Shown: positions 8,390 to 23,771 of the stretch, one piece after another | Layout of the letters: each line of letters begins with the position of its first letter | How positions within the stretch are numbered: the first letter of the stretch is position 1 | IMG/VR virus record: IMGVR_UViG_3300001683_000037 | Span: 1-29,548 of that record | From: a virus | Strand: one strand, 5' to 3' | Length of the DNA stretch: 29,548 nucleotides | Notes under the pieces: model-generated | The model's input: the letters and a program-made list of their open reading frames with translations, nothing else | What the model was told of the DNA's origin: nothing | The model's database searches: none | Program-made: the position numbers and the translations under genes

Positions 8390-10384
8390 ATGGCTAAGTC
8401 ATTTACACTAAATCAGCTTACTGAGGGAATCCGCGATCGTAACGTGGGCGCCGAAGGACGTAGGCTAGTCGAGAAGTGGACCAGAACAGGTCTTCTTCGC
8501 GGTCTCAATGATCAGAAGAGAGAGACAATGTCTCGTCTTCTTGAGAATCAGGCTGCACAGCTACTTCGAGAGCAGAACAGCATCTCAACAGGAGGAGCAA
8601 GCGGAACATCATCTGGTGACATCCGTGGTTTCACAAACATCGCATTCCCAATCGTTCGCAGGGTTTTCGGCGGATTAATAGCCAATGAGCTAGTTTCAAT
8701 TCAGCCAATGAGTCTTCCATCTGGACTTCTCTTCTACCTTGATTACACATATGGATCAAATGTCGGTGGTGATGCTAGCACATCAACAGGTGCAGCTGGA
8801 TCGCTTGACTCTGAGCAGTATTCTCAGGGGAGTTCAATCTACAACCTTCCAACTGGTAAGGGCATTCGCTCGGGTTCTCTAGCAATCGGTGGTCAGTATG
8901 ACCTTGTTGGCGCAGGATACACGAGAGTTCACTCAACAGCAGCTGGCACAACCTGGCAGCTACTTGGATCTGGATCCTTCTTAGGATCTGAACAAACTCT
9001 TCAGACAGGTGTCACAGCTCTATGTCACGCAACAGGCACAGACGGAAAACTTCTACAGTTTGACCCACAGATCACCACTCTAATTGAGGATGATCCTGGA
9101 AGAAGTGGAACTGGTCGTTTTCAGTTTATGTTTTGGGATGTTACAAATATGCCCTCTGACATGGATCTAACAGCAGTTAGAGAGATTGGTCTCTATACGC
9201 AGGGTGCTTCTGGCGGCTCTAGCCCACTTGCTTCCTCAAGTCCAGGACTTCAGGAGATCGGTGTTGGCGCTAACAACAAGGCAGGAAAAGATCTTCAGGG
9301 CGGTAAGGGACTACTTAATGTTAGGCGTCTCAACCAGCTTGGAACGTTTGTCAACAGCAAGTTTACACCTAATCCACTTGTTACGCAAAATACTGCAAAT
9401 GCAGCTCTTCTAACTGTTGTTACTGGTACGTATCCACTAATGCTTGGTGGAACAGGTATTGATACACGTGCTGCTGCTGCAGACAATAACGTCACGGGAT
9501 CTTATGTTGTCGGTGCGACTCTTAATGTAGGTAGTGATGGTGATACTCTTACCATTCCAACCTTTGAGTCTGATTTCGCAACTTCTCCATCAATTGTCAT
9601 CCCAGAGATCGATATCAAGATCGAGTCAATCGCTGTAACAGCTCAGACACGTAAGCTCCGCGCTCGCTGGTCACCAGAGCTCGCACAGGATCTTAACGCT
9701 TACCACAGCCTCGACGCTGAGGTTGAGCTCACTCAGATCCTCTCTGAGCAGATTGCACTTGAGATCGATAGAGAGATTCTCTCTGACCTTCTCACAGAGG
9801 CTAACGGTGCTAACTACTACTGGTCAAGAATGCCTGGTAAGTTCGTTAATAAGACGAATGGTACAGCTCAGAATAAGGCTTCTTCACTTGCAGCTGGCCC
9901 AACCTTCACAGGTACGGTCCGCGAGTGGTATGAGACGCTTGTTGAGACAATCATCGATGTTGCTAATGAGATTCACAGAAAGACCCTTCGCGGCTCTGCT
10001 AACTTCGTTGTAACTTCACCTGATGTCGCTACAATCTTTGAGGCATCTGTGCTCTATAAGCCAAATTATAGCCTTGATGGTCAGGGACAGGTTGGTCAGC
10101 CGTTCTCACTCGGTGCAGCTCCAATCGGTTCTCTTAGCAATCGCTTCACAGTCTACAAGGATCCTTACTTCCCAAGGAACAAGATCCTCGTCGGTTACAA
10201 GGGTGGTAGCTATCTTGAGACAGGTTACGTCTACGCTCCGTACGTACCACTTATCGTCACACCAACAATCTTCGCTCCCGAAGACTTCACGCCTCGTAAG
10301 GGCGTGATGACTCGATACGGAAAGAAGATGGTTCGTTCTGACTTCTACGGTACAGTTACGGTCATGGATCTTAACGTCATCTAA
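8390..10384 (+). CDS. 23: Major capsid protein, gp23-like
   Basis: This is the main shell protein. The 664-aa product (T4 gp23 precursor is 521 aa) has the conserved early block NIAFPIVRRVFGGLIANELVSIQPM (about residues 83-107) followed by GLLFYLDYTYGSN, which matches the T4 gp23 segment around its 'VGRVFPNLIAHQLVGVQP' region. An N-terminal helical propeptide is likely. An L-x-E site at LRE61 (also LLE52) is placed close to where T4 gp21 cuts gp23 (after residue 65). An insertion at about residues 215-400 (Gly/Ser/Thr-rich) accounts for the extra length. Codon use differs from its neighbours, with more CGT/CGC arginine and CTC/CTT leucine, as expected for the most highly expressed gene. AAAGGAG lies upstream of the ATG, and a strong terminator follows. 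Confidence 0.96.
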   Translation: MAKSFTLNQLTEGIRDRNVGAEGRRLVEKWTRTGLLRGLNDQKRETMSRLLENQAAQLLREQNSISTGGASGTSSGDIRGFTNIAFPIVRRVFGGLIANELVSIQPMSLPSGLLFYLDYTYGSNVGGDASTSTGAAGSLDSEQYSQGSSIYNLPTGKGIRSGSLAIGGQYDLVGAGYTRVHSTAAGTTWQLLGSGSFLGSEQTLQTGVTALCHATGTDGKLLQFDPQITTLIEDDPGRSGTGRFQFMFWDVTNMPSDMDLTAVREIGLYTQGASGGSSPLASSSPGLQEIGVGANNKAGKDLQGGKGLLNVRRLNQLGTFVNSKFTPNPLVTQNTANAALLTVVTGTYPLMLGGTGIDTRAAAADNNVTGSYVVGATLNVGSDGDTLTIPTFESDFATSPSIVIPEIDIKIESIAVTAQTRKLRARWSPELAQDLNAYHSLDAEVELTQILSEQIALEIDREILSDLLTEANGANYYWSRMPGKFVNKTNGTAQNKASSLAAGPTFTGTVREWYETLVETIIDVANEIHRKTLRGSANFVVTSPDVATIFEASVLYKPNYSLDGQGQVGQPFSLGAAPIGSLSNRFTVYKDPYFPRNKILVGYKGGSYLETGYVYAPYVPLIVTPTIFAPEDFTPRKGVMTRYGKKMVRSDFYGTVTVMDLNVI

Positions 10385-10408: not shown

Positions 10409-10438
10409 GGGGCGGCCTTAACTGGCCGCCCCTTTTTT
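10409..10438 (+). terminator. Rho-independent terminator after major capsid gene
   Basis: A perfect 9-bp GC stem (GGGGCGGCC at 10409-10417, GGCCGCCCC at 10424-10432) with a 6-nt loop is followed directly by six T. It lies 25 nt after the capsid stop. Confidence 0.96.
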
Positions 10439-10551: not shown

Positions 10552-10977
10552 ATGCCAAAAGTAACAATTGATAATTCAAGAGGGCTCGTCCAAGAGGGCG
10601 GCTCAGGGCTAGTGGTTAAATCTAGCGCAACTTTTAACAATTTGGTTTTAACCGCAGAGTCAGTGACTGCAGCTGGAGCTGCTAGCGTCACAGTTCCAGT
10701 AACACTGACAACGTCGGACGGAGACACAATGGCAGTTACACTCGCTGATGGATCCACCGAAGGCCAGATGAAATACTTTGTTGAGCTTCACGCGACCAAT
10801 GCTACATCAATAACACCAGCCTCGACGTGTGGTGGCTGGTCTGTTGCTACTTTGACAAACGCAGGTGAAAATGTCACAATGGTGTGGACAGCCTCTGGAT
10901 GGGCTCTTATTGGTCGATCGGGTGGCGCAACTCAGTCCTCTGCTACAGCTGTAGCTGGACAACCTATTATTGGTTAA
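10552..10977 (+). CDS. Small beta-rich protein, possible capsid decoration/virion surface protein (141 aa)
   Basis: The ATG at 10552 is chosen because AAAGGAG lies 7 nt upstream. An in-frame GTG at 10456 would add 32 residues that read through the hairpin leader and has no ribosome binding site. The 141-aa product is rich in Val, Thr, Ala, Ser and Gly with alternating hydrophobic residues, which suggests a beta structure, and ends with ENVTMVWTASGWALIGRSGG followed by an Ala/Ser-rich tail. No membrane segment is present. It has its own promoter region and its own terminator directly behind the major capsid gene, as expected for an abundant virion protein. A capsid decoration or head-fibre role is an inference from composition and context, as no family is firmly recognised. 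Confidence 0.8.
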   Translation: MPKVTIDNSRGLVQEGGSGLVVKSSATFNNLVLTAESVTAAGAASVTVPVTLTTSDGDTMAVTLADGSTEGQMKYFVELHATNATSITPASTCGGWSVATLTNAGENVTMVWTASGWALIGRSGGATQSSATAVAGQPIIG

Positions 10978-11023
10978 TATTTTATAGGTTGACAAATATC
11001 TTTTAGATATAATAGCAATTATT

Positions 11024-11053
11024 CGGGGCGCCTTAAAAAGGGCGCCCCGTTTC
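11024..11053 (+). terminator. Rho-independent terminator after the 10552 gene
   Basis: A perfect 9-bp GC stem (CGGGGCGCC at 11024-11032, GGCGCCCCG at 11041-11049) with an 8-nt loop TTAAAAAG is followed by TTTCTATTT. The loop begins with the same TTAA as the capsid terminator. Confidence 0.92.
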
Positions 11054-11099
11054 TATTTACATGTGTTCGTAATATTTATTATAATGATGGGTACTTTTA

Positions 11100-12395
11100 A
11101 TGCCAAGCACAGTTAGAAGATCTTTTTTTTATACAGACACTAAGAAAACAGGAGCTAGTAAGAAAATGGCAGATGATTTTTATAAAGAAGCAGCGCAAGA
11201 GACTCTAAAGGCTGCTGTTAGAGAAAAACTTGCTTCACAACAGCAGTCTCAAAAAGAAGAGCAGCCTCAATCAGAGCCTGTTCAGCCTGAGATTCAGGCT
11301 GTTGTAGAGGTTGCTTTAAGCTCCCAGACAGAAAATACAATAGTTGATGAAGATGAAGATAGCTTTGATGATTTTGACTTTGTTGAGGCATACGATGATT
11401 CACCGGCAGCAGTTGATGCACAGATGCTTCCAGACAATAGAGCTAGAAGTGCAATTAATTGTGCATTTATTGGTGTTGGCGGCGGCGGTGGAAAGATGGC
11501 AAAGGCATTTCTTGATCTTGGATTTACAAAGACAGTCCTTATAAACACCACAGTGAAGGATCAACCTGAGGGTGTGTCATCTGAGCACTTTCTACTTCTG
11601 CCAGGAGCTGATGGTGTAGGGAAGGATATAACGCTCGGAAAAAGAGTCCTCATAGACAACAGTGCTATGGTAGAGGATATGCTTAGAACAAGAATCGGAA
11701 AGGTTGACTGGATATTTGTTCTAGCTGGCGGTGGAGGCGGCACGGGCAGCGCGTGTAAGATACTTAACGATACCCTGGTCCGTCATCTTAAGTCTGTAGG
11801 GGGTAACGGTGATATTGTATATATTATTACAAAGCCATCATCCCAGGAGCTTCTGAATCCCACCATATCAGCAAATTTTGAGTCTTTGCACGATGATGTA
11901 AGGCTTACTCCGCACATACTTTTAGACAATGAGAGACAGCTCAAGCTTCTAAGGGGAAAGGTTGGAATTTTAAATCTATACCCGACAGCAAATAAGAATT
12001 TTGCAAAACTTCTATGGAATGTTTTTAAGCTAGCATCAGAAAATTCTCCAATTCAATCATTTGACTCTAAAGATCTTGAGAGATGCTTATCAACACCAGG
12101 CAGAATGGTAGTAGGAAGCACAGTTGCCAGAGATGTTACAAAGCAAGACTTGGGATCTATTTTATATCAGGGTTGTATTAGGTCATCACCATGTCCCGCT
12201 CCACCAGGTAGATCAAAAGCAGGAGTTATGCTTCTTATTGCAACTTCTGCTATGGCTTCAGATCCGTCTGTTAGTAAAAAGCTAGAGGCTTCATTTTCAT
12301 ATCTAGGGGGAAGAACTGACACTCTTTTCACTGGCGTTTATATTAAAGAGAGAATCCCAGGGCTAATAGCTATCACTGTTATTGGCGGAATTTGA
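11100..12395 (+). CDS. FtsZ/tubulin-superfamily GTPase
   Basis: A full-length FtsZ-type protein of 431 aa. T1: FIGVGGGGGK (123-132). T2: LINTT (148-152), with Thr where FtsZ has Asp. T3: LPGADGVGKD (167-176). T4, the tubulin signature loop: AGGGGGTGSA (209-218). T5: ITKP (243-246). T6: LLDNERQL (274-281), then AN at 297-298. T7 synergy loop: SFDSKDLE (320-327), keeping the two acidic positions (D322, D325) that support GTP hydrolysis in FtsZ NxDxxD. The C-terminal activation domain is present, ending in ITVIGGI like the end of the FtsZ globular domain, with no C-terminal tail. Residues 1-115 form an acidic, Gln-rich extension. The start may instead be ATG 11166 (GGAG 11 nt upstream). By family it should bind GTP and polymerise; its role in this phage is unknown. 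It lies between capsid and neck genes. Confidence 0.93.
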   Translation: MPSTVRRSFFYTDTKKTGASKKMADDFYKEAAQETLKAAVREKLASQQQSQKEEQPQSEPVQPEIQAVVEVALSSQTENTIVDEDEDSFDDFDFVEAYDDSPAAVDAQMLPDNRARSAINCAFIGVGGGGGKMAKAFLDLGFTKTVLINTTVKDQPEGVSSEHFLLLPGADGVGKDITLGKRVLIDNSAMVEDMLRTRIGKVDWIFVLAGGGGGTGSACKILNDTLVRHLKSVGGNGDIVYIITKPSSQELLNPTISANFESLHDDVRLTPHILLDNERQLKLLRGKVGILNLYPTANKNFAKLLWNVFKLASENSPIQSFDSKDLERCLSTPGRMVVGSTVARDVTKQDLGSILYQGCIRSSPCPAPPGRSKAGVMLLIATSAMASDPSVSKKLEASFSYLGGRTDTLFTGVYIKERIPGLIAITVIGGI

Positions 12396-12413
12396 AAAAA
12401 AATATTTTATAAC

Positions 12414-12476
12414 TTATTGAATTAAAACACGCTGATATAATTTGCCACAAAGAGATATAGATATCTAATTCAATAA
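12414..12476 (+). repeat. Inverted repeat in gap after the tubulin-like gene
   Basis: Perfect 11-bp arms, TTATTGAATTA (12414-12424) and TAATTCAATAA (12466-12476), flank a 41-nt AT-rich spacer that itself contains GATATAGATATC. No T-tract follows, so it is not a canonical terminator. It could be an operator, a protein-binding site or a weak RNA stem ahead of the neck genes. Confidence 0.55.
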
Positions 12477-12552
12477 TCTAATTTAAATCTTGTCGTATTG
12501 CTTAATATTTATCATTAGAGCAAGAGTGTTCAATACGTCAGGAGATTGATTC

Positions 12553-13734
12553 GTGGCAACATTTTCAAATACTACAAATCCTACTCCGTATGGATTTTTC
12601 GACTCAGAGTCAAATTTCCAAACAGAGGCTAATAATATTGTTACATTTGTTAAAAGAAAGCTAGGCGATGATGTTCTAAGTGTTGAATTAACAAAGAAGC
12701 AGATATGGTCATCTTTAGAAGAGGCAACTCTAGAGTTTAGCTCGATATTAAATCAATATCAGGCAAAATCGCAGCTATCTCAATTCTTAGGGCAATCAAC
12801 CACAGGGTCTGATGGCGCAATGTCTGGATCAGAGGGAATGTACCCAAGGGAAAATCTTGAGTATCTTACAAGATTTGCTGAGCCGTATGCTGAAAATGCT
12901 GGAGTTGGAGGATCTTATAACATGATGTCTGGCTCTATTCAACTAAAGCAAGGCCAGCAAGATTATGATATTTACAGCTCTCTTAAAGATGCAAGCGAGA
13001 ATCTTATATTCTCTTCAAGTTTAAATCCCTTAAGGACAAAGTTACAAATAAGCGAGATTTTTCACTTTAATCCGCAAGCAGCATATAGATTTTTTGATAC
13101 TACATCTGCAATAAATTATCTAAATAATGAATTTTCATTTGAATCTTTTACACCAGAGACTATATTTTATGTTTTGCCTGTTTTTGAAGATATTCTTAGG
13201 GCAGGACAGTTAGATCTATCAAATAGAGTTAGAAGATCAAACTACTCATACAAAGTTGTAGGAACAAAAGTAAGAATATACCCAAAACCAACGCAAGATA
13301 ATCCTCAAAAACTTTTTATGAGGGTTAAATTTTTTCCAAACCCTCTTAGTCCGTCATTTCAAGATGATACAATAAAGGGAGTATCAAATTTATCTGATAT
13401 TCCGTTTGGAAATTTAGAATACAATAATATAAACAGCATTGGAAGACAATGGATAAGGCAGTATACAACTGCTGTGTCTACCGAGCTGCTTGGTAGAATT
13501 AGATCAAAATTTGGAAACATACCAATCCCAGGATCAGATCTTACATTAAACGGCACAGATCTTGTTACTCAAGGAAGAGAAGATCAGACAAATCTAAAAA
13601 CTCAGCTTAAGGAGATGCTAGAGACTATGACATATGATAAGCTTATGGAGACTGCAGCAACAAGAGCTGAGTTTATAAATAAGCAACTTAAATACGTTCC
13701 AATGCCAAATGGCTTAGCAATCTTTATGGGATAA
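12553..13734 (+). CDS. 13: Neck protein, gp13-like
   Basis: A head-completion/neck protein that closes the filled head below the portal and receives the tail. The start is a GTG with CAGGAG 9 nt upstream. The 393-aa product (T4 gp13 is 309 aa) shows helical N-terminal features (FVKRKLGDDVLSVELTKKQIWSSLEEA, about residues 33-59), a beta-rich centre and a conserved-looking end, WIRQYTTAVSTELLGRIRSKF (about 296-316) followed by IPIPGSDLTLNGTDL. The call rests on this pattern and on being first in a 13-14-15 series. A 157-bp AT-rich gap upstream separates it from the tubulin-like gene and probably carries a promoter. Confidence 0.85.
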   Translation: MATFSNTTNPTPYGFFDSESNFQTEANNIVTFVKRKLGDDVLSVELTKKQIWSSLEEATLEFSSILNQYQAKSQLSQFLGQSTTGSDGAMSGSEGMYPRENLEYLTRFAEPYAENAGVGGSYNMMSGSIQLKQGQQDYDIYSSLKDASENLIFSSSLNPLRTKLQISEIFHFNPQAAYRFFDTTSAINYLNNEFSFESFTPETIFYVLPVFEDILRAGQLDLSNRVRRSNYSYKVVGTKVRIYPKPTQDNPQKLFMRVKFFPNPLSPSFQDDTIKGVSNLSDIPFGNLEYNNINSIGRQWIRQYTTAVSTELLGRIRSKFGNIPIPGSDLTLNGTDLVTQGREDQTNLKTQLKEMLETMTYDKLMETAATRAEFINKQLKYVPMPNGLAIFMG

Positions 13735-15614: not shown

Positions 15615-15647
15615 TAGTGATTTGTGATATTTGAGTAATTAAGCGAT

Positions 15648-15657
15648 AGTTATAACT
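15648..15657 (+). promoter_or_regulatory. Candidate late promoter for first sheath gene (AGTTATAACT)
   Basis: A perfect 10-bp palindrome containing the recurrent AGTTATA box, 29 nt before the sheath ATG and upstream of its AACAGGAG ribosome binding site. The following sheath gene and the tape measure gene have a similar ATAGTTATA box at similar distance. Confidence 0.45.
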
Positions 15658-15686: not shown

Positions 15687-18600
15687 ATGGCCGAACAGAC
15701 ATTTAAATCACCCGGTTTTTTTGAGAATGAAATCGATCTCTCACAAAGAGAGACAGAGATTATTGGAGTACCAGCGGGTGTCGTAGGAACAGCTAGGATG
15801 GGTCCAGCATTTGTACCCGTAACAGTCGGATCATTTGCTGATTTCGAGAGAAGATTTGGTACACTAGATTCAAAATATTTTGGTCCCTATGCAGTTAGAG
15901 AATTTTTAAAGCACCAGACTGCGCTTACTTATGTTAGAGTATTGGGTGCAGGAGCAAATGAAACAGCTACAGACATTGCAAATACTCGCTCTGGCGGAAT
16001 CGTTAAGTCAGCAGGTTTTAAAGTAATAGGAACAGAAGCAACTGAAACACCCAGCTCTTTTGGAAGATATAAAGGGTGCACTCAGTTTATAGTTGCAAGA
16101 CACGTTGTGTCATCATCACAGGAGAGATACGGGTATCCGATATTTAGAGATAACAGAAGCTATGATCTAAATAATACACTAGATGACAATGTGTTTCTTG
16201 TAAGGGGAATGTTATTTACATCAACTGGATCAAGATTTGAAATACTTGACTATGCAACAGCTAGCTATGCACTAACAGCATCTATTCAGTCAGATCTTGC
16301 TAAGCCAAATAGCGATGGATTATTTAAGCTAGTTCTTTCATCGTCTGCTGGATCTGCTTTCTCAACTGGCGACGGATTCGCTGGTATTAGAATATACACG
16401 GCATCACTTAATCCAGTCTCTGATGCATACATTGGGAATATTCTCAATACAGACCCAGAGAGATTTGGAGTTGAACAACATCTTCTATATGCAGACTTTC
16501 CTGTTGAGAACGAGCTGGCTTCTGTTGATACTGGGCCAGGAGATTGTCCTCCTATTGCTCTTGTCTCTGGATCGTCAAATTCATCTCAATCATCTGGTGT
16601 CTCAAGTATATCTTTCCTTGATGCTTTCGGAAGGTTTGATACAAGATATAGTGCAGCAAGAACATCAGCATTTATATCACAGCCATATGGAAGAAAAGAG
16701 TTTGATCTCTTCCACTTTGAGTGTATATCTGATGGTGCTGTTGCAAATCAGAAATATAAGATATCAATTAGAGATGTCAAGAAGTCAACAAGTCCAACAG
16801 ATTTATATGGAACATTCACAGTCCAGGTTAGAAATTTTGATGACACAGATACAAACATACAGGTCGTGGAGCAATACTCTCAGTGTACTCTAAACCCACT
16901 TGACGATGACTACGTTGCAAAGAAGATAGGCGACTACAAGGCATACTTTAACTTCGATGCAGAGCAGGTGTCAGAAAGAAGAATGATGGTATCAGGAAAA
17001 TATCCTAATGTCTCTTCTAAGATAAGAATTATTATGAATAACTCTGTTGAAAGTGGAGATGCCCCGAAAGACGCATTACCGTTTGGGTTTAGAGGATTCC
17101 CATCACTTAAGACAAATGACACACTTACAGATCACACAACTGGATCTTCAGCTGATAGATCTACAGAGGGGACTTCTGGCCCAGCAAGAAGGTTAACGCT
17201 AGTATCAGGATCAGCTGAGGGTGCTGGCGCAGGACCTATGCGTGAGCTATGGCCACCACTCTTTAAGAATGCTGCAGCAAGACTTACTGGGTCTATAGTT
17301 CCGCCTCTTCCGCTAAGATTCAAAGTGACAAGAGGCGATGTAAGTACAGCTGGAGGATTTAGAGGTCACAGTGGTGATGACGAGCGAGTTGATGGAAGAT
17401 ACTATTGGGGATGTAAATTTACAAGACTTCCAAGGACCGCGTCTCTTTCAAATGCAGTGCTTAACTCAAATGTGTCTTCTGAGATAAATCCCCTTATCAG
17501 GTCATACACAAAATTACTTGGTATCCAAAAGCTTGATCAGGCTGTAACAGGAGCCGGAGCAGATCAGTTTAATGATAATAAGTTCACTCTTGCAAGAGTT
17601 GCTCTTCCAAACTATATTGCAAACGACTCATCTGGAAACCCAAGCTTAGACAAGACTGCAAATACAAATTTGACGGGATCTGCGAAAGAGCATGTGCTAG
17701 ATACTGCTTATATTAGAGATGCTGATCCGAATGCATCTAACTACACAGTTGTAGATCCTGAAAGCGGTGGATCAAGAATGACATTTGCTTCACTCGCTGC
17801 ATTGACATCATCTGTTTATTTTAATAGATTCTCTACTTATGCAAAATTCACAAACTTAATGTACGGTGGATTTGACGGTGTCAACATTCTAAACAAAGAC
17901 ATGGCCAGGATGAATGACAGGTCAACGTCTTCAGATACAGGCGGGATCGCAGCAAATTCTCAACCTGATATTGGCCTTAATATCACTACTGCTACTGGCA
18001 ACGATTTCGGAAGCGGAAAGTTAAATTCAAATGTTGCATCATATAGAATAGGCGCAACAATTATAACAGACCCAATGGTATCCAGAGTAAATGTCATAAC
18101 AATACCAGGAATAAGGGACTCAGCTGTTACAGACTTTGTATTCGATAAGCTCTCTGTTTACTCCAAGGGATTCTATGTAGTTGATATACCATCATATGAT
18201 GCAAGCGGTGTAAGGCTCTTTGGTGATAGCGGAGATCCCTCTATTGATGTCGGTCAAACTTATGAACAGTTTGACTCCAGGGCAGTAGATAATAATTACT
18301 CTGCAACATATTTTCCTGATGTTACAATAGAGGATCCGATTAATAATGAAAGGGTTCAAGTTCCATCATCTATTGCAGTTATTGGAGCTTTAGCATATAA
18401 TGATAGTGTTGCATATCCATGGTTTGCACCTGCAGGATTTAATAGAGCTGCTCTAGACTTTGTTACAAATGTCAAGGTAAGGCTTAATCAGGCAGATAGA
18501 GATAATCTTTATGAGGCAAGAATAAATCCGATAGCAACATTCCCTAGAGCGGGATTTGTAATATTTGGACAAAAAACGCTACAGCTATCTAGAAGTGCTC

Positions 18601-18917
18601 TAGATAGAGTTAATGTTAGAAGAATGCTTCTCGAGATTAAGCGACTTATTTCAAACGTCGCAAACAAAATAGTATTTGAGCAAAACACGCCTCAAACTAG
18701 ATCAAGATTTGTATCTCAAGTGACACCTCTTCTTGCCACAGTTCAGGCTCAACAAGGCGTTGATCAATTTAAAGTAGTTATGGATTCAAGCAATAACACG
18801 CAGGAAGATATTGAAAATAATGTCTTAAATGGAAGAATCGTAGTTGTTCCAACTCGTGCAGTTGAATTCGTAGCAATAGACTTTATAATAACAAATGCTG
18901 GCGTTAGCTTTGAATAG
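15687..18917 (+). CDS. 18: Contractile tail sheath protein, gp18-like, copy 1
   Basis: This forms the contractile outer tail sheath. The 1076-aa product is far longer than T4 gp18 (659 aa). The N-terminus is typical of sheath proteins: GFFENEIDLS, then VPAGVVGTARMGPAFVPVTVGSFADFERRFG (about residues 27-57). The C-terminal core is also typical: YPWFAPAGFNRAAL near residues 911-924, a region of INPIATFPRAGFVIFGQKTL near 947-966, then DRVNVRRMLLEIKR and VEFVAIDFIITNAG at the end. The middle holds extra Ser/Thr/Gly-rich domains that would project from the sheath. The gene is paired with a full-length paralogue downstream. Confidence 0.96.
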   Translation: MAEQTFKSPGFFENEIDLSQRETEIIGVPAGVVGTARMGPAFVPVTVGSFADFERRFGTLDSKYFGPYAVREFLKHQTALTYVRVLGAGANETATDIANTRSGGIVKSAGFKVIGTEATETPSSFGRYKGCTQFIVARHVVSSSQERYGYPIFRDNRSYDLNNTLDDNVFLVRGMLFTSTGSRFEILDYATASYALTASIQSDLAKPNSDGLFKLVLSSSAGSAFSTGDGFAGIRIYTASLNPVSDAYIGNILNTDPERFGVEQHLLYADFPVENELASVDTGPGDCPPIALVSGSSNSSQSSGVSSISFLDAFGRFDTRYSAARTSAFISQPYGRKEFDLFHFECISDGAVANQKYKISIRDVKKSTSPTDLYGTFTVQVRNFDDTDTNIQVVEQYSQCTLNPLDDDYVAKKIGDYKAYFNFDAEQVSERRMMVSGKYPNVSSKIRIIMNNSVESGDAPKDALPFGFRGFPSLKTNDTLTDHTTGSSADRSTEGTSGPARRLTLVSGSAEGAGAGPMRELWPPLFKNAAARLTGSIVPPLPLRFKVTRGDVSTAGGFRGHSGDDERVDGRYYWGCKFTRLPRTASLSNAVLNSNVSSEINPLIRSYTKLLGIQKLDQAVTGAGADQFNDNKFTLARVALPNYIANDSSGNPSLDKTANTNLTGSAKEHVLDTAYIRDADPNASNYTVVDPESGGSRMTFASLAALTSSVYFNRFSTYAKFTNLMYGGFDGVNILNKDMARMNDRSTSSDTGGIAANSQPDIGLNITTATGNDFGSGKLNSNVASYRIGATIITDPMVSRVNVITIPGIRDSAVTDFVFDKLSVYSKGFYVVDIPSYDASGVRLFGDSGDPSIDVGQTYEQFDSRAVDNNYSATYFPDVTIEDPINNERVQVPSSIAVIGALAYNDSVAYPWFAPAGFNRAALDFVTNVKVRLNQADRDNLYEARINPIATFPRAGFVIFGQKTLQLSRSALDRVNVRRMLLEIKRLISNVANKIVFEQNTPQTRSRFVSQVTPLLATVQAQQGVDQFKVVMDSSNNTQEDIENNVLNGRIVVVPTRAVEFVAIDFIITNAGVSFE

Positions 18918-18922
18918 AGAAT

Positions 18923-18931
18923 AGTTATAAA
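18923..18931 (+). promoter_or_regulatory. Candidate late promoter for second sheath gene (AGTTATAAA)
   Basis: The ATAGTTATAAACG sequence lies in the 37-bp gap between the two sheath genes, 23 nt before the second ATG and upstream of TTGGAG. It closely matches the boxes at 15648 and 23763. Confidence 0.45.
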
Positions 18932-18954: not shown

Positions 18955-21900
18955 ATGGCTGAAATAACCTATAGTAGCGCAGGCGTTTACACAAATGAGA
19001 TTGACCTGTCTCAGCCCAGGGCTGTAACTCCCACAGGGACACCAGCAGGCGTAATTGGAACTGCAGATAGGGGACCAGCGTTTGTCCCTATAACAGTTGG
19101 AAATTATCAATCTTTTGTTGCAGCATTTGGAAGTGCAGATGGTTCAAAATTTGGACCTCTTGCAGTCAATCAGTTTCTTAAGAATGCTCAGGCTTTAACT
19201 TACGTTAGAGCTCTAGGCATTGGAGATGGAAAGCAGAGAAGCTCTACAACTGGACAGGTCACATGGTCTGGATTTGTTGTTGGAAACCAGCAGGTAAAAG
19301 ATAATGGGCTTATTGGAACTAATCCTTATGGAACAGTAGGCGGAGGTCCACTCGGAAGAACACACTTCCTTGGATGCTTTATGTCTGAGTCTGCAGGAAG
19401 CACAATATTTAGTGAAGCTGGAATTACACTCAACATTAGTGGAGCAGTTCCGATTATTAGAGGTGTTTTGATGGCACCATCTGGTGTTATTCCAACACTA
19501 TCTGGAAACTTTGTGGCAAAGGGAAGTGAGAGCCCAAGTAGTACAACTACAGCAATGCTAACTGTTGCCAATGCAAAGGGTGGCCTGACAGGATCAGTTG
19601 ATCTTGCAACTCAGCAGTTTGTTCTACTTCTAAATGGTCATAAGTCAACAGGGGAATTCCCTAATGTTCTAACTTGTTCGTTCGAGACAACAAGCGGCCA
19701 ATACTTTAGTCACGTGCTTAATACTGATCCACTTAAGATTCAAGAGGCAGGCCACCTTCTCTATTCACATTATAATATAGATACAAGCCTTGCAGTCGTA
19801 ACTGGCTCTGGAATTTTAAGTGCATCATTAAACTTCACAGCAGGAAAAGACGGAGGAACAGTCTCTACGTTTGAACCTGTCGCGTTTATTACAACATCGT
19901 CTATATCTAGAGACTCATCTGACACGTATGTTCCTAACTATGAAAATTTCAGAGAGAGGTTTAAAACACCAGCTACTCCATACTTCACATCACAGGTGTA
20001 CGGTGCATCAGCATACAATTTGTTTAGGGTCCACTCTGTTGATGACGGAGCGTATGCAAATACACTATTTAAGATCACTATATCAAATCTAAAACCAGCA
20101 TCAACAGATGACGGTTATGGAACATTCTCTTTAACAGTTAGGGACTTTAATGATAATGACTATGAAAAGACGCCTCTAGAGACTTATAACGGATTGTCTC
20201 TTGATCCAGGAAGTGATAGGTATATTGGAAGAATGATAGGTGATCAAAGGGCATACTTTGATTTTGATCAGGCATCTTCAGCGCAAAAACTTGTTCTTGC
20301 AGGAGACTTTCCTGTAAGGTCAAATTATGTTAGAGTTGAGCTTGGAGATCAATTAAAGAATGGAAACGTTCCAAACACAGCTCTCCCGGTAGGGTTTAGA
20401 GGTCTTAGCCACCTTGTCACATCGGGTACAAATCCCCTAACAAGCCCAACAACAGGATATTATTATACCGACGGAGGAGAGAAAATTAATTATCTCCAGC
20501 CTGGTTTAACAACTGATATCTTAAAGAGAGCTGTGCAACCACCTGTTACGTTTAGAAGAAATGTTGCGGTGGGTGAAGGAATTAACAAAAAGTCAAGAGC
20601 TGGCCTCGGCTGGGGCGTTCAGTTTGAGACAATTACAAGTCTAGCGACACCCAATGCGCTTAAACCAAATGATCCCACAATAGTCAGCTTAGCAAAATTC
20701 TTCCCAGGTTTTCACCCAACAAGCTTCAACTTCTCAGTTGGAAATAATGAAGGAACTGCAGACTCTCAGGGGACAGTTCTAGATTGTGATACGTTTAATA
20801 ACAATATTTTCTCTCTTGAGAGGGTAAAAGTTAGAACGGGATCTGTCATGTACGGAGGAGTAACTGTTGCAGATATAGATCATTGGGCATCAGCATCTTA
20901 TGTAAGGAAGGGATCAATAACAGCCGATGAAACTGCAAAAACTAGAGCATTCAAAGTGGATGACTTAAAGGCGCAGGGAAATAGGGCGTATCTATCGTTC
21001 ACAACAATAGCTCAGGGCGGATTTAACGGTCTAGATATCTTAAATAAAGATAAGTCAAGACTTCTTAATGCTTCCGCAAAGAGAGAGATGGATGATGTAA
21101 CAAATCAGGGAGGAACTTCCGGTCCTACAGTTTCAGCATACAGGAAAGCAGTTGACATAATGGGGACAAAGTCAGAGGTTGAAATCAACCTTCTTGCAAT
21201 TCCCGGATTAAGACACACATCTGTTACAAACTATGCGATGGATTCAGTTGAGAGTAGATTTGACTCAATGTATATTATGGACATAGAGGAGAGAGATGAG
21301 CTAGACTCAGTTGTTACATCTTCTGTGGGTGCAAACGTTAACGTAACAAACACAGTCAATGCATTCCTTGGAAGGGCTTTAAATACTTCATTCGCGGCAG
21401 CATACTTTCCAGATGTCGTCATTCAGGAGCCAACAAATCTTACAAATGTAAGAGTACCTCCATCAACAGTTGTTCTAGGGGCCTTTGCACAGAATGATGC
21501 CATTGGATATCCCTGGTTTGCACCGGCAGGTTTCTCTAGAGGATCACTTTCAAGTGTTCAGCAAACATCTCTGATGTTTAACAAGCAAAATCTTGATGAC
21601 ATATATGACGCTGACATCAATCCTATCACAGAGCCTGTCCCGGGAGCTGGAATCATGGTCTGGGGTCAGAAAACTCTTCTCTCTAACGCATCAGCACTTG
21701 ATAGGGTCAATGTTAGAAGGCTTCTAATATACATTAGAAGAAGGGTAAGAGATGTTTCAAGGCAAATGCTATTTGAACCAAACAGGCAAGAAACTCTAGA
21801 TAAGTTTACGTCCCTTGTTCAGCCAATACTTCAGACAATTCAAGAGAGAAGCGGTGTTGATAGGTACAAAGTTATAATTGATGCTACGACAACAACACAG

Positions 21901-22020
21901 ACAGATGTAGAGAATAACACGCTACGTGGAAAGATATTCATACAGCCTACAAGAACAGCAGAGTTTGTTGCTCTTGACTTCGTTGTCACTAATGCTGGTG
22001 ATGGATTTGCAAATGCTTAA
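18955..22020 (+). CDS. 18: Contractile tail sheath protein, gp18-like, copy 2
   Basis: A second sheath protein of 1021 aa, a paralogue of copy 1 along its whole length. The N-terminus (NEIDLSQ, then PAGVIGTADRGPAFVPITVG) is nearly the same as copy 1. The middle shares the YGTFSLTVRDFNDND, IGDQRAYFDFD and ALPVGFRGL stretches. The C-terminal half shares YPWFAPAGFSRGSL, WGQKTL, DRVNVRRLLIYIRRR and EFVALDFVVTNAG. Clear divergence elsewhere shows the duplication is old. The tail tube gene follows 46 nt later, giving the usual sheath-tube order. Whether both proteins are in the same sheath cannot be told from sequence. Confidence 0.96.
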   Translation: MAEITYSSAGVYTNEIDLSQPRAVTPTGTPAGVIGTADRGPAFVPITVGNYQSFVAAFGSADGSKFGPLAVNQFLKNAQALTYVRALGIGDGKQRSSTTGQVTWSGFVVGNQQVKDNGLIGTNPYGTVGGGPLGRTHFLGCFMSESAGSTIFSEAGITLNISGAVPIIRGVLMAPSGVIPTLSGNFVAKGSESPSSTTTAMLTVANAKGGLTGSVDLATQQFVLLLNGHKSTGEFPNVLTCSFETTSGQYFSHVLNTDPLKIQEAGHLLYSHYNIDTSLAVVTGSGILSASLNFTAGKDGGTVSTFEPVAFITTSSISRDSSDTYVPNYENFRERFKTPATPYFTSQVYGASAYNLFRVHSVDDGAYANTLFKITISNLKPASTDDGYGTFSLTVRDFNDNDYEKTPLETYNGLSLDPGSDRYIGRMIGDQRAYFDFDQASSAQKLVLAGDFPVRSNYVRVELGDQLKNGNVPNTALPVGFRGLSHLVTSGTNPLTSPTTGYYYTDGGEKINYLQPGLTTDILKRAVQPPVTFRRNVAVGEGINKKSRAGLGWGVQFETITSLATPNALKPNDPTIVSLAKFFPGFHPTSFNFSVGNNEGTADSQGTVLDCDTFNNNIFSLERVKVRTGSVMYGGVTVADIDHWASASYVRKGSITADETAKTRAFKVDDLKAQGNRAYLSFTTIAQGGFNGLDILNKDKSRLLNASAKREMDDVTNQGGTSGPTVSAYRKAVDIMGTKSEVEINLLAIPGLRHTSVTNYAMDSVESRFDSMYIMDIEERDELDSVVTSSVGANVNVTNTVNAFLGRALNTSFAAAYFPDVVIQEPTNLTNVRVPPSTVVLGAFAQNDAIGYPWFAPAGFSRGSLSSVQQTSLMFNKQNLDDIYDADINPITEPVPGAGIMVWGQKTLLSNASALDRVNVRRLLIYIRRRVRDVSRQMLFEPNRQETLDKFTSLVQPILQTIQERSGVDRYKVIIDATTTTQTDVENNTLRGKIFIQPTRTAEFVALDFVVTNAGDGFANA

Positions 22021-23745: not shown

Positions 23746-23762
23746 ACCCTTTGCTTGTGAAT

Positions 23763-23771
23763 AGTTATATC
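23763..23771 (+). promoter_or_regulatory. Candidate late promoter for tape measure gene (AGTTATATC)
   Basis: The sequence GAATAGTTATATCTAAGG lies 15 nt before the tape measure ATG and matches the GAGAATAGTTATAAACG upstream of the second sheath gene. The leader would be very short, with AAGGGTGAG as the ribosome binding site. Confidence 0.4.

Follow-up and report, generated by a model that had tools for sequence, protein, structure and literature searches.

TUB, the gene described here, encodes a protein that is, by its predicted fold and its nucleotide-binding loops, a GTPase of the tubulin/FtsZ superfamily. The best explanation of its features is that it is the first representative of a family distinct from FtsZ, CetZ, TubZ and PhuZ, that is, a new family within a known superfamily, with an architecture and a context that are new as well. 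TUB lies in a 29.5-kb virus record (the window, meaning the whole stretch of DNA that was analysed) and is surrounded there by a T4-like head and tail gene cluster. As a full explanation we tentatively favour a family of late cytomotive tubulins of marine T4-like phages, jumbo phages included, a reading that we regard as plausible.

Results and discussion

Identity and predicted fold of TUB

The TUB reading frame (11100-12395, + strand) is intact from ATG to TGA and encodes 431 amino acids; its annotation as a phage tubulin-superfamily GTPase gene draws on the ORF, Pfam, a phmmer search of the PDB, alignment, AF2 modelling and VIA. Residues 122-247 matched the Pfam Tubulin family at E = 1.3e-4, short of the curated cut-off, and the same family was matched by all members of the first TUB alignment (10/10). 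The best phmmer match in the PDB was archaeal CetZ 3zid (E = 1e-7), with numerous FtsZ entries next. The AF2 model, computed with 61 relatives as input, exhibited a two-domain tubulin fold with a pLDDT of about 97 over residues 111-431, and a second model, of a short family member, gave the tubulin fold at pLDDT 91. VIA alignment of the TUB model with CetZ, TubZ and FtsZ yielded Z scores of 27-32 over 266-308 residues. The top rows were tied between CetZ2 4b45 (Z 31.9, 2.5 Å, 290 residues) and TubZ 4ei7 (Z 31.9, 2.4 Å, 308 residues), while 3zid reached Z 30.6 and FtsZ Z 27-29; Foldseek likewise returned 3zid as the top match. The structure check proposed in an earlier note on this DNA thus gave the two-domain fold, with matches to CetZ, TubZ and FtsZ.

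That note had also described a complete tubulin-superfamily GTPase. Indeed, the intact frame contains all motifs T1-T7 in the order listed there: T1 IGVGGGGGK (residues 124-132, with GVGGGGGK at 125-132; 11469..11495, +), T2 NTTxKD (149-154), T3 GADGVGK (169-175), T4 AGGGGGTGS (209-217, with GGGGGTGS at 210-217; 11724..11750, +), T5 TKPxxQE (244-250), T6 DNERQ (276-280) and the catalytic T7 loop PIQSFDSKDLE (317-327, with QSFDSKDL at 319-326; 12048..12080, +). In the alignment of 61 TUB sequences, the positions of the GTP-binding loops T1-T6 and of the acidic T7 loop are invariant or nearly so. D322, K324 and D325 of T7 are invariant, so that both T7 acids, which the note had seen in the single sequence, are kept throughout the 61 relatives; the unusual lysines K132 (T1), K153 (T2) and K324 (T7) are invariant, too. 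In tubulins, the T7 acids work in trans across the protofilament interface. A core dN/dS of about 0.02 (range 0.014-0.07, pairs with unsaturated dS) indicates that this part of the protein is under strong purifying selection.

N-terminal linker and C-terminus

Residues 1-89 (11100..11366, +) constitute an N-terminal linker that is mostly predicted to be disordered and is under relaxed constraint. The AF2 pLDDT is mostly below 50, with a helix at residues 21-49 as the exception, and the N-terminal dN/dS amounts to 0.13-0.56 (pairs with finite dS) versus 0.01-0.07 in the core. This extension evolves fast and ranges from 32 to 172 residues across the 61 TUB sequences. It carries an acidic-aromatic motif, DDFDFVEAYD (residues 90-99; 11367..11396, +), with the consensus D-D/E-F-D/G-F-V/I-x-x-Y in the alignment of 61, where F92 and F94 are invariant and Y98 is present in 59/61 sequences. 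In the model of the short member the motif was of low confidence and undocked. We infer that DDFDFVExYD may be a partner-binding peptide, a counterpart of the FtsZ C-terminal peptide at the other end of the chain. A role as a head-targeting tag was rejected, since essentially none of the other protein families of the TUB loci shares a signature of this type.

The C-terminal activation domain (residues 335-431; 12102..12392, +) was delimited from the AF2 model and the alignment. The chain stops two residues past the last strand in the window protein and 1-8 residues past it in all 61 sequences, and TUB therefore has neither a PhuZ/TubZ-type tail at its C-terminus nor the linker-peptide of FtsZ. 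In place of that tail, TUB has the N-terminal linker and its motif.

Family extent and phylogeny

A profile-guided scan of IMG/VR revealed that at least 288 stretches encode TUB relatives. Large records of up to 293 kb were tested as well, and each of them contained exactly one PF00091 match (22/22). No TUB was detected among 50,697 phage records, and bacterial and archaeal genome contigs yielded only four relatives, all in MAGs, which we take for phage contigs binned with these MAGs. The carriers form a large, apparently undescribed group of marine phages, some of them with giant genomes. The phage tubulins PhuZ and TubZ are already known (PMC7950403), and tubulin has been described as a mark of the Chimalliviridae with scattered exceptions (PMC11835377) and, among marine jumbo phages, as unique to the PhiKZ-like group (PMC9123017). 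A description of the TUB family was not found in the literature searched, outside of which many subscription papers lie.

Profile scores were highest for TubZ-like proteins of Bacillota plasmids (42-74 bits) and gp138 of phage G (55 bits); FtsZ (14-36), CetZ (21-32) and PhuZ (at most 20) all scored below these. In phylogenetic trees, TUB formed one long-stemmed clade, supported at 96/93 with PhuZ in the tree and at 100/99 without it. The tree without PhuZ placed TUB and the TubZ-like proteins on one side (99/94), with long-branched TubZ rows and TUB as a clade of its own; a sister grouping of TUB and FtsZ was still allowed (AU p = 0.115). FtsZ formed one clade excluding TUB (100/99), as did CetZ (98/86, partial CetZ sequences only). 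PhuZ was also a single clade (100/100), which TUB adjoined at 88/83, a placement that carries a long-branch warning. Against the NCBI FtsZ equivalog TIGR00065, TUB scored 24 bits, where the cut-off is 295. A plain FtsZ was rejected on the basis of the tree, the missing C-terminal linker and peptide, and this score. The architecture had earlier been called FtsZ-like rather than PhuZ-like, which is only partly right: a PhuZ-type tail is indeed missing, but profile scores and tree lie nearer to the TubZ-like proteins and phage G gp138.

Phage G gp138, annotated as 'putative FtsZ-like cell division protein', and the plasmid TubZ-like proteins thus combine the top profile scores with a grouping with TUB when PhuZ is left out of the tree, and their T7 loops (FDKNDL, LDSMDL) resemble that of TUB. 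However, identity to TUB is at most about 25%, and these proteins carry C-terminal extensions, whereas TUB has the N-terminal linker and motif. The neighbours of gp138 are nucleotide-metabolism genes, not virion genes. PhuZ of the nucleus-forming jumbo phages (Chimalliviridae) is likewise a phage-encoded tubulin of a lytic phage and a presumed intracellular organiser, although its similarity to TUB is weak (phrog_4733, E = 6e-4). PhuZ goes with chimallin, which was not found in 16 large TUB records, and the acidic C-terminal knuckle/tail missing from the 61 TUB sequences has been described as critical for PhuZ polymerisation (PMC3678025). TubZ of phage c-st (compared via the PDB only) and of pBtoxis/pXO1-type plasmids, which serves type III partition, shares the fold (VIA Z 28-32), but neither its C-terminal tail nor an iteron array or TubR was recognised for TUB. 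FtsZ has the fold, all GTP-binding loops and the T7 acids in common with TUB (Z about 27-29); its C-terminal linker and peptide are missing from TUB, which falls outside the FtsZ clade. Archaeal CetZ, the top Foldseek match (3zid), likewise has a T2 without the FtsZ Asp, yet it scored below TubZ-like proteins in the profile comparison (21-32 bits) and sits on its own branch. The best viral structural match, A0A6J5RW92 of an uncultured Caudovirales phage in BFVD ('FtsZ Cell division GTPase'; Foldseek E = 2e-22), is merely 17% identical to TUB.

Genomic setting

The cluster in the window comprises a terminase piece, portal gp20, protease gp21, gp23, a gp13-like adaptor, two sheaths, tube and hub. 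As stated in the earlier note, TUB is sited between capsid and neck genes, namely a gp23-like major capsid protein gene (664 aa; 8390..10384, +; phrog_138, E = 7e-76) and a gp13-like head-tail adaptor (neck) gene (12553..13734, +; phrog_211, E = 1e-12). A small gene upstream of TUB (141 aa from an internal ATG; 10552..10977, +) is without family match and occurs in TUB-lacking relatives as well. The best PHROG stretch of the gp23-like protein covers residues 395-646 only, and a long variable insertion may precede it. The two divergent tail sheath genes stand in tandem (15687-18917, 1076 aa; 18955-22020, 1021 aa); both relatives and the 293-kb genome retain the pair, which perhaps forms a mixed or two-zone sheath. 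Searches for tRNAs, Rfam families and PADLOC systems gave no match.

A misassembled host fragment, considered beforehand as a circumstance that would undermine the finding, was excluded because the gp23-TUB-gp13 junction was found in many independent contigs, identical proteins came from four assemblies, and cellular genome contigs yielded just the four MAG relatives. Among named phages, Microcystis phage Mel-JY01, the Flavobacterium immuto phages and Rhodothermus RM378 come closest by portal comparison, and all of them are without TUB; Mel-JY01 and immuto have a PhoH gene in the capsid-neck slot. A family-B DNA polymerase, which would have pointed to replication akin to that of phiKZ or T4, was absent from seven large records. 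The jumbo phage DnaK did not single out a host phylum, as its best identities, 63% and 62%, were in the phyla of the Flavobacteriales MAG and the Halobacteriovorax MAG, respectively. In the 293-kb TUB record (G005), three further genes, judged by eye from the starts of their sequences, seem to encode a GroEL (254782-256401), a DnaK (281033-282907, with 60-63% bacterial matches) and a DnaE-type polymerase (221666-225265); a family-B polymerase was not detected there. Two gp23-like capsid genes, encoding 632 and 629 aa, stand in tandem in the same record and have identical beginnings (176269-180150; L125-L126).

Accessory distribution and mobility

The earlier note had proposed looking for the gene in the same slot in other phages. 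Of 77 TUB loci, the window among them, 33 carry it in the gp23-gp13 slot, 11 have it between the portal and protease genes, and 11 beside a PhoH-PIN gene, with other positions in the remaining ones; the gene occurs in at least four genomic settings. In jumbo relatives a PIN-PhoH protein is encoded a few genes downstream of TUB (L044 11551-12840). Linkage to head genes is not universal, since jumbo relatives such as the 293-kb genome have TUB about 100 kb away from the structural block. On the gene tree, the location of TUB changes at least seven times.

Slots between gp23 and gp13 were also collected via a gp13 scan, irrespective of TUB. TUB was present in 17 of these loci and missing from 29, with gaps as small as 238 bp, and the gp13 tree required about nine changes of TUB state, at least three of them forced by starred branches. 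No copy was found elsewhere in 19 TUB-lacking records (fragments of 15-115 kb), and no tubulin in the whole records of Mel-JY01, immuto, RM378, LR756508 and LR756511. TUB-lacking slots hold sulfotransferase-like and other small genes. The sulfotransferase-like genes (PF03567) recur in the slot (e.g., L157 6007-6765, L163 4742-5632), which looks like a cassette site. The closest relative, with 91% identity, carries directly upstream of its intact gene a truncated N-terminus from another TUB allele (L140 6094-6414, equal to L002 9938-10258); this remnant is a trace of allele exchange. Since close relatives lack the gene, its settings vary and an allele remnant is present, the comparison indirectly shows TUB to be an accessory, exchanged gene that is not essential for assembly. 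Absence from the slot in close relatives and a different site in jumbo genomes also make it unlikely that TUB is an essential assembly scaffold or a virion component; the earlier note had contemplated assembly scaffolding and a place in the virion.

Expression signals

A strong intrinsic terminator with an 11 bp stem followed by a T-rich stretch (11024..11049, +) parts TUB from the upstream gene, and a further terminator lies downstream of gp23 (10409..10432, +). The late-promoter-like motif AATATTTAT has two exact matches in the window, one 29 nt before the TUB start codon (11071..11079, +) and one 49 nt before the gp13-like gene (12504..12512, +). Similar promoter-like motifs precede tail sheath A (ATAGTTAT; 15646..15653, +), tail sheath B (AATAGTTAT; 18920..18928, +) and the 876-aa gene (AATAGTTAT; 23760..23768, +). 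A sigma70-like TTTACA-18-TATAAT (11056..11085, +) overlaps the motif at TUB, and the region holds about as many such sites as expected by chance. The wider pattern ATANTTAT has six plus-strand matches in the window, five of which lie 26-48 nt ahead of TUB, gp13, both sheath genes and the 876-aa gene.

As ATANTTAT was chosen post hoc from the window, it was tested on other loci. There it was found upstream of TUB in 23/69, of gp13 in 19/33 and of sheath genes in 17/44 cases, compared with 50/726 for other ORFs and 3% for random stretches. Enrichment at TUB was significant (Fisher p = 2e-9), but the figure of 23/69 is only partly independent, as the pattern was picked after TUB upstream regions had already been read; the gp13 and sheath figures are independent of this choice. 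About two thirds of the TUB genes are without an exact match, the portal-protease class had none (0/10), and essentially none preceded gp23, portal or protease in other loci. Throughout the 293-kb relative, 23/33 matches were intergenic versus 5/23 for the reverse complement, and many were located 24-49 nt before genes, portal and sheath among them. The pattern differs from the T4 consensus TATAAATA. The exact T4 late promoter was itself tried and rejected, as it gave 63 matches (at most one mismatch) versus 45 expected, few of them at gene starts. Judged from these sequence patterns, ATANTTAT is probably a late promoter of this phage clade, and its occurrence before TUB, neck and sheath genes alike suggests late expression of TUB, as the earlier note had supposed from gene order.

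Putative function and alternative explanations

In the favoured reading as a late cytomotive tubulin, TUB would bind and hydrolyse GTP at subunit interfaces and form dynamic filaments, as the fold and the invariant residues suggest, and would be made alongside neck and tail proteins, to judge from the common promoter-like motif. The DDFDFVExYD peptide on its flexible linker would bind a phage or host partner. The filaments may then move maturing heads or replicated DNA, or hold them in position, and raise the yield, in a PhuZ-like manner. Such a system would do without both a chimallin nucleus and TubR/tubC partition. Chimallin (phrog_4795) gave no match in 16 large, possibly incomplete TUB records and the four MAG genomes, with phiKZ as a positive control; a PhuZ-type nucleus is therefore unlikely. 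No iteron or tubC-like array was found at 10978-11110 or 12390-12560, where one pair of 11-mers was the only repeat, and no small DNA-binding match of the TubR type was recognised among recurrent TUB neighbours, as judged without a TubR profile. The lack of an array and of a recognised adaptor argues against type III partition. The patchy presence of TUB indirectly points to a fitness gene rather than an assembly-essential one, and also suits a host-takeover gene.

The latter leads to a role in antagonising host division, by which TUB would co-assemble with or poison host FtsZ, or keep the cell undivided for more progeny before lysis. A tubulin core whose longitudinal interface resembles that of FtsZ, together with the lack of a C-terminal tail, would fit this role, as would the accessory, horizontally exchanged spread typical of host-interaction genes; FtsZ was present in 41/41 sampled genomes of the Bacteroidota, a possible host phylum. 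Nevertheless, we consider this role unlikely. The motif before TUB resembles a late promoter, not an early one, and an enzyme-dead mimic would be enough as a poison, yet all catalytic residues are invariant. Late timing and kept catalysis thus argue against a simple FtsZ poison, and co-assembly is made less likely by a TUB-FtsZ structural identity of only about 17-20%.

We give still less credence to a TubZ-like maintenance tubulin that segregates phage DNA in a carrier or pseudolysogenic state. The top profile scores of plasmid TubZ-like proteins and gp138, together with the 99/94 grouping with TubZ in the tree without PhuZ, speak for it, but TUB has no iteron/tubC-like array next to it, no recurrent small DNA-binding neighbour that was recognised, no TubZ-type C-terminal tail, and a promoter motif of the late type. 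It is equally improbable that TUB is a virion or internal head protein that travels with the DNA, or that it acts transiently in head assembly. Its location, in one group in the gp23-gp13 slot and in another between the portal and protease genes, would suit such a role, but close relatives do without TUB although their head and neck genes are the same, the 293-kb genome has the gene far from its structural block, and the N-terminal signature of TUB is essentially unshared with other locus proteins. Finally, the long stem branch and the unusual invariant K132 (T1), K153 (T2) and K324 (T7) could reflect a GTP-dependent protein that uses the tubulin scaffold without polymerising, as an enzyme, sensor or counter-defence factor. 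The invariance of both T7 acids, trans-acting in tubulins, and the lack of a PADLOC match leave this with little probability. The cytomotive reading may be taken further, to a fifth kind of prokaryotic cytomotive tubulin that is phage-only, uses an N-terminal peptide as its anchor in place of a tail at the C-terminus, moves or arranges capsids late in ordinary T4-like infections that lack a nucleus, and is passed as a cassette among marine phages; in this extended form we hold it to be rather doubtful.

Conclusions

Of the known phage tubulins, PhuZ is bound up with the chimallin nucleus and TubZ with plasmid-like partition. The TUB family is common in marine phages, including those with jumbo genomes, and is strongly conserved. 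Since close relatives differ in the presence of TUB, they offer a natural comparison with and without the gene, given a cultured host. If the proposed function is true, TUB would operate in phages without a detected nucleus protein, and phage intracellular cytoskeletons would extend beyond nucleus biology.
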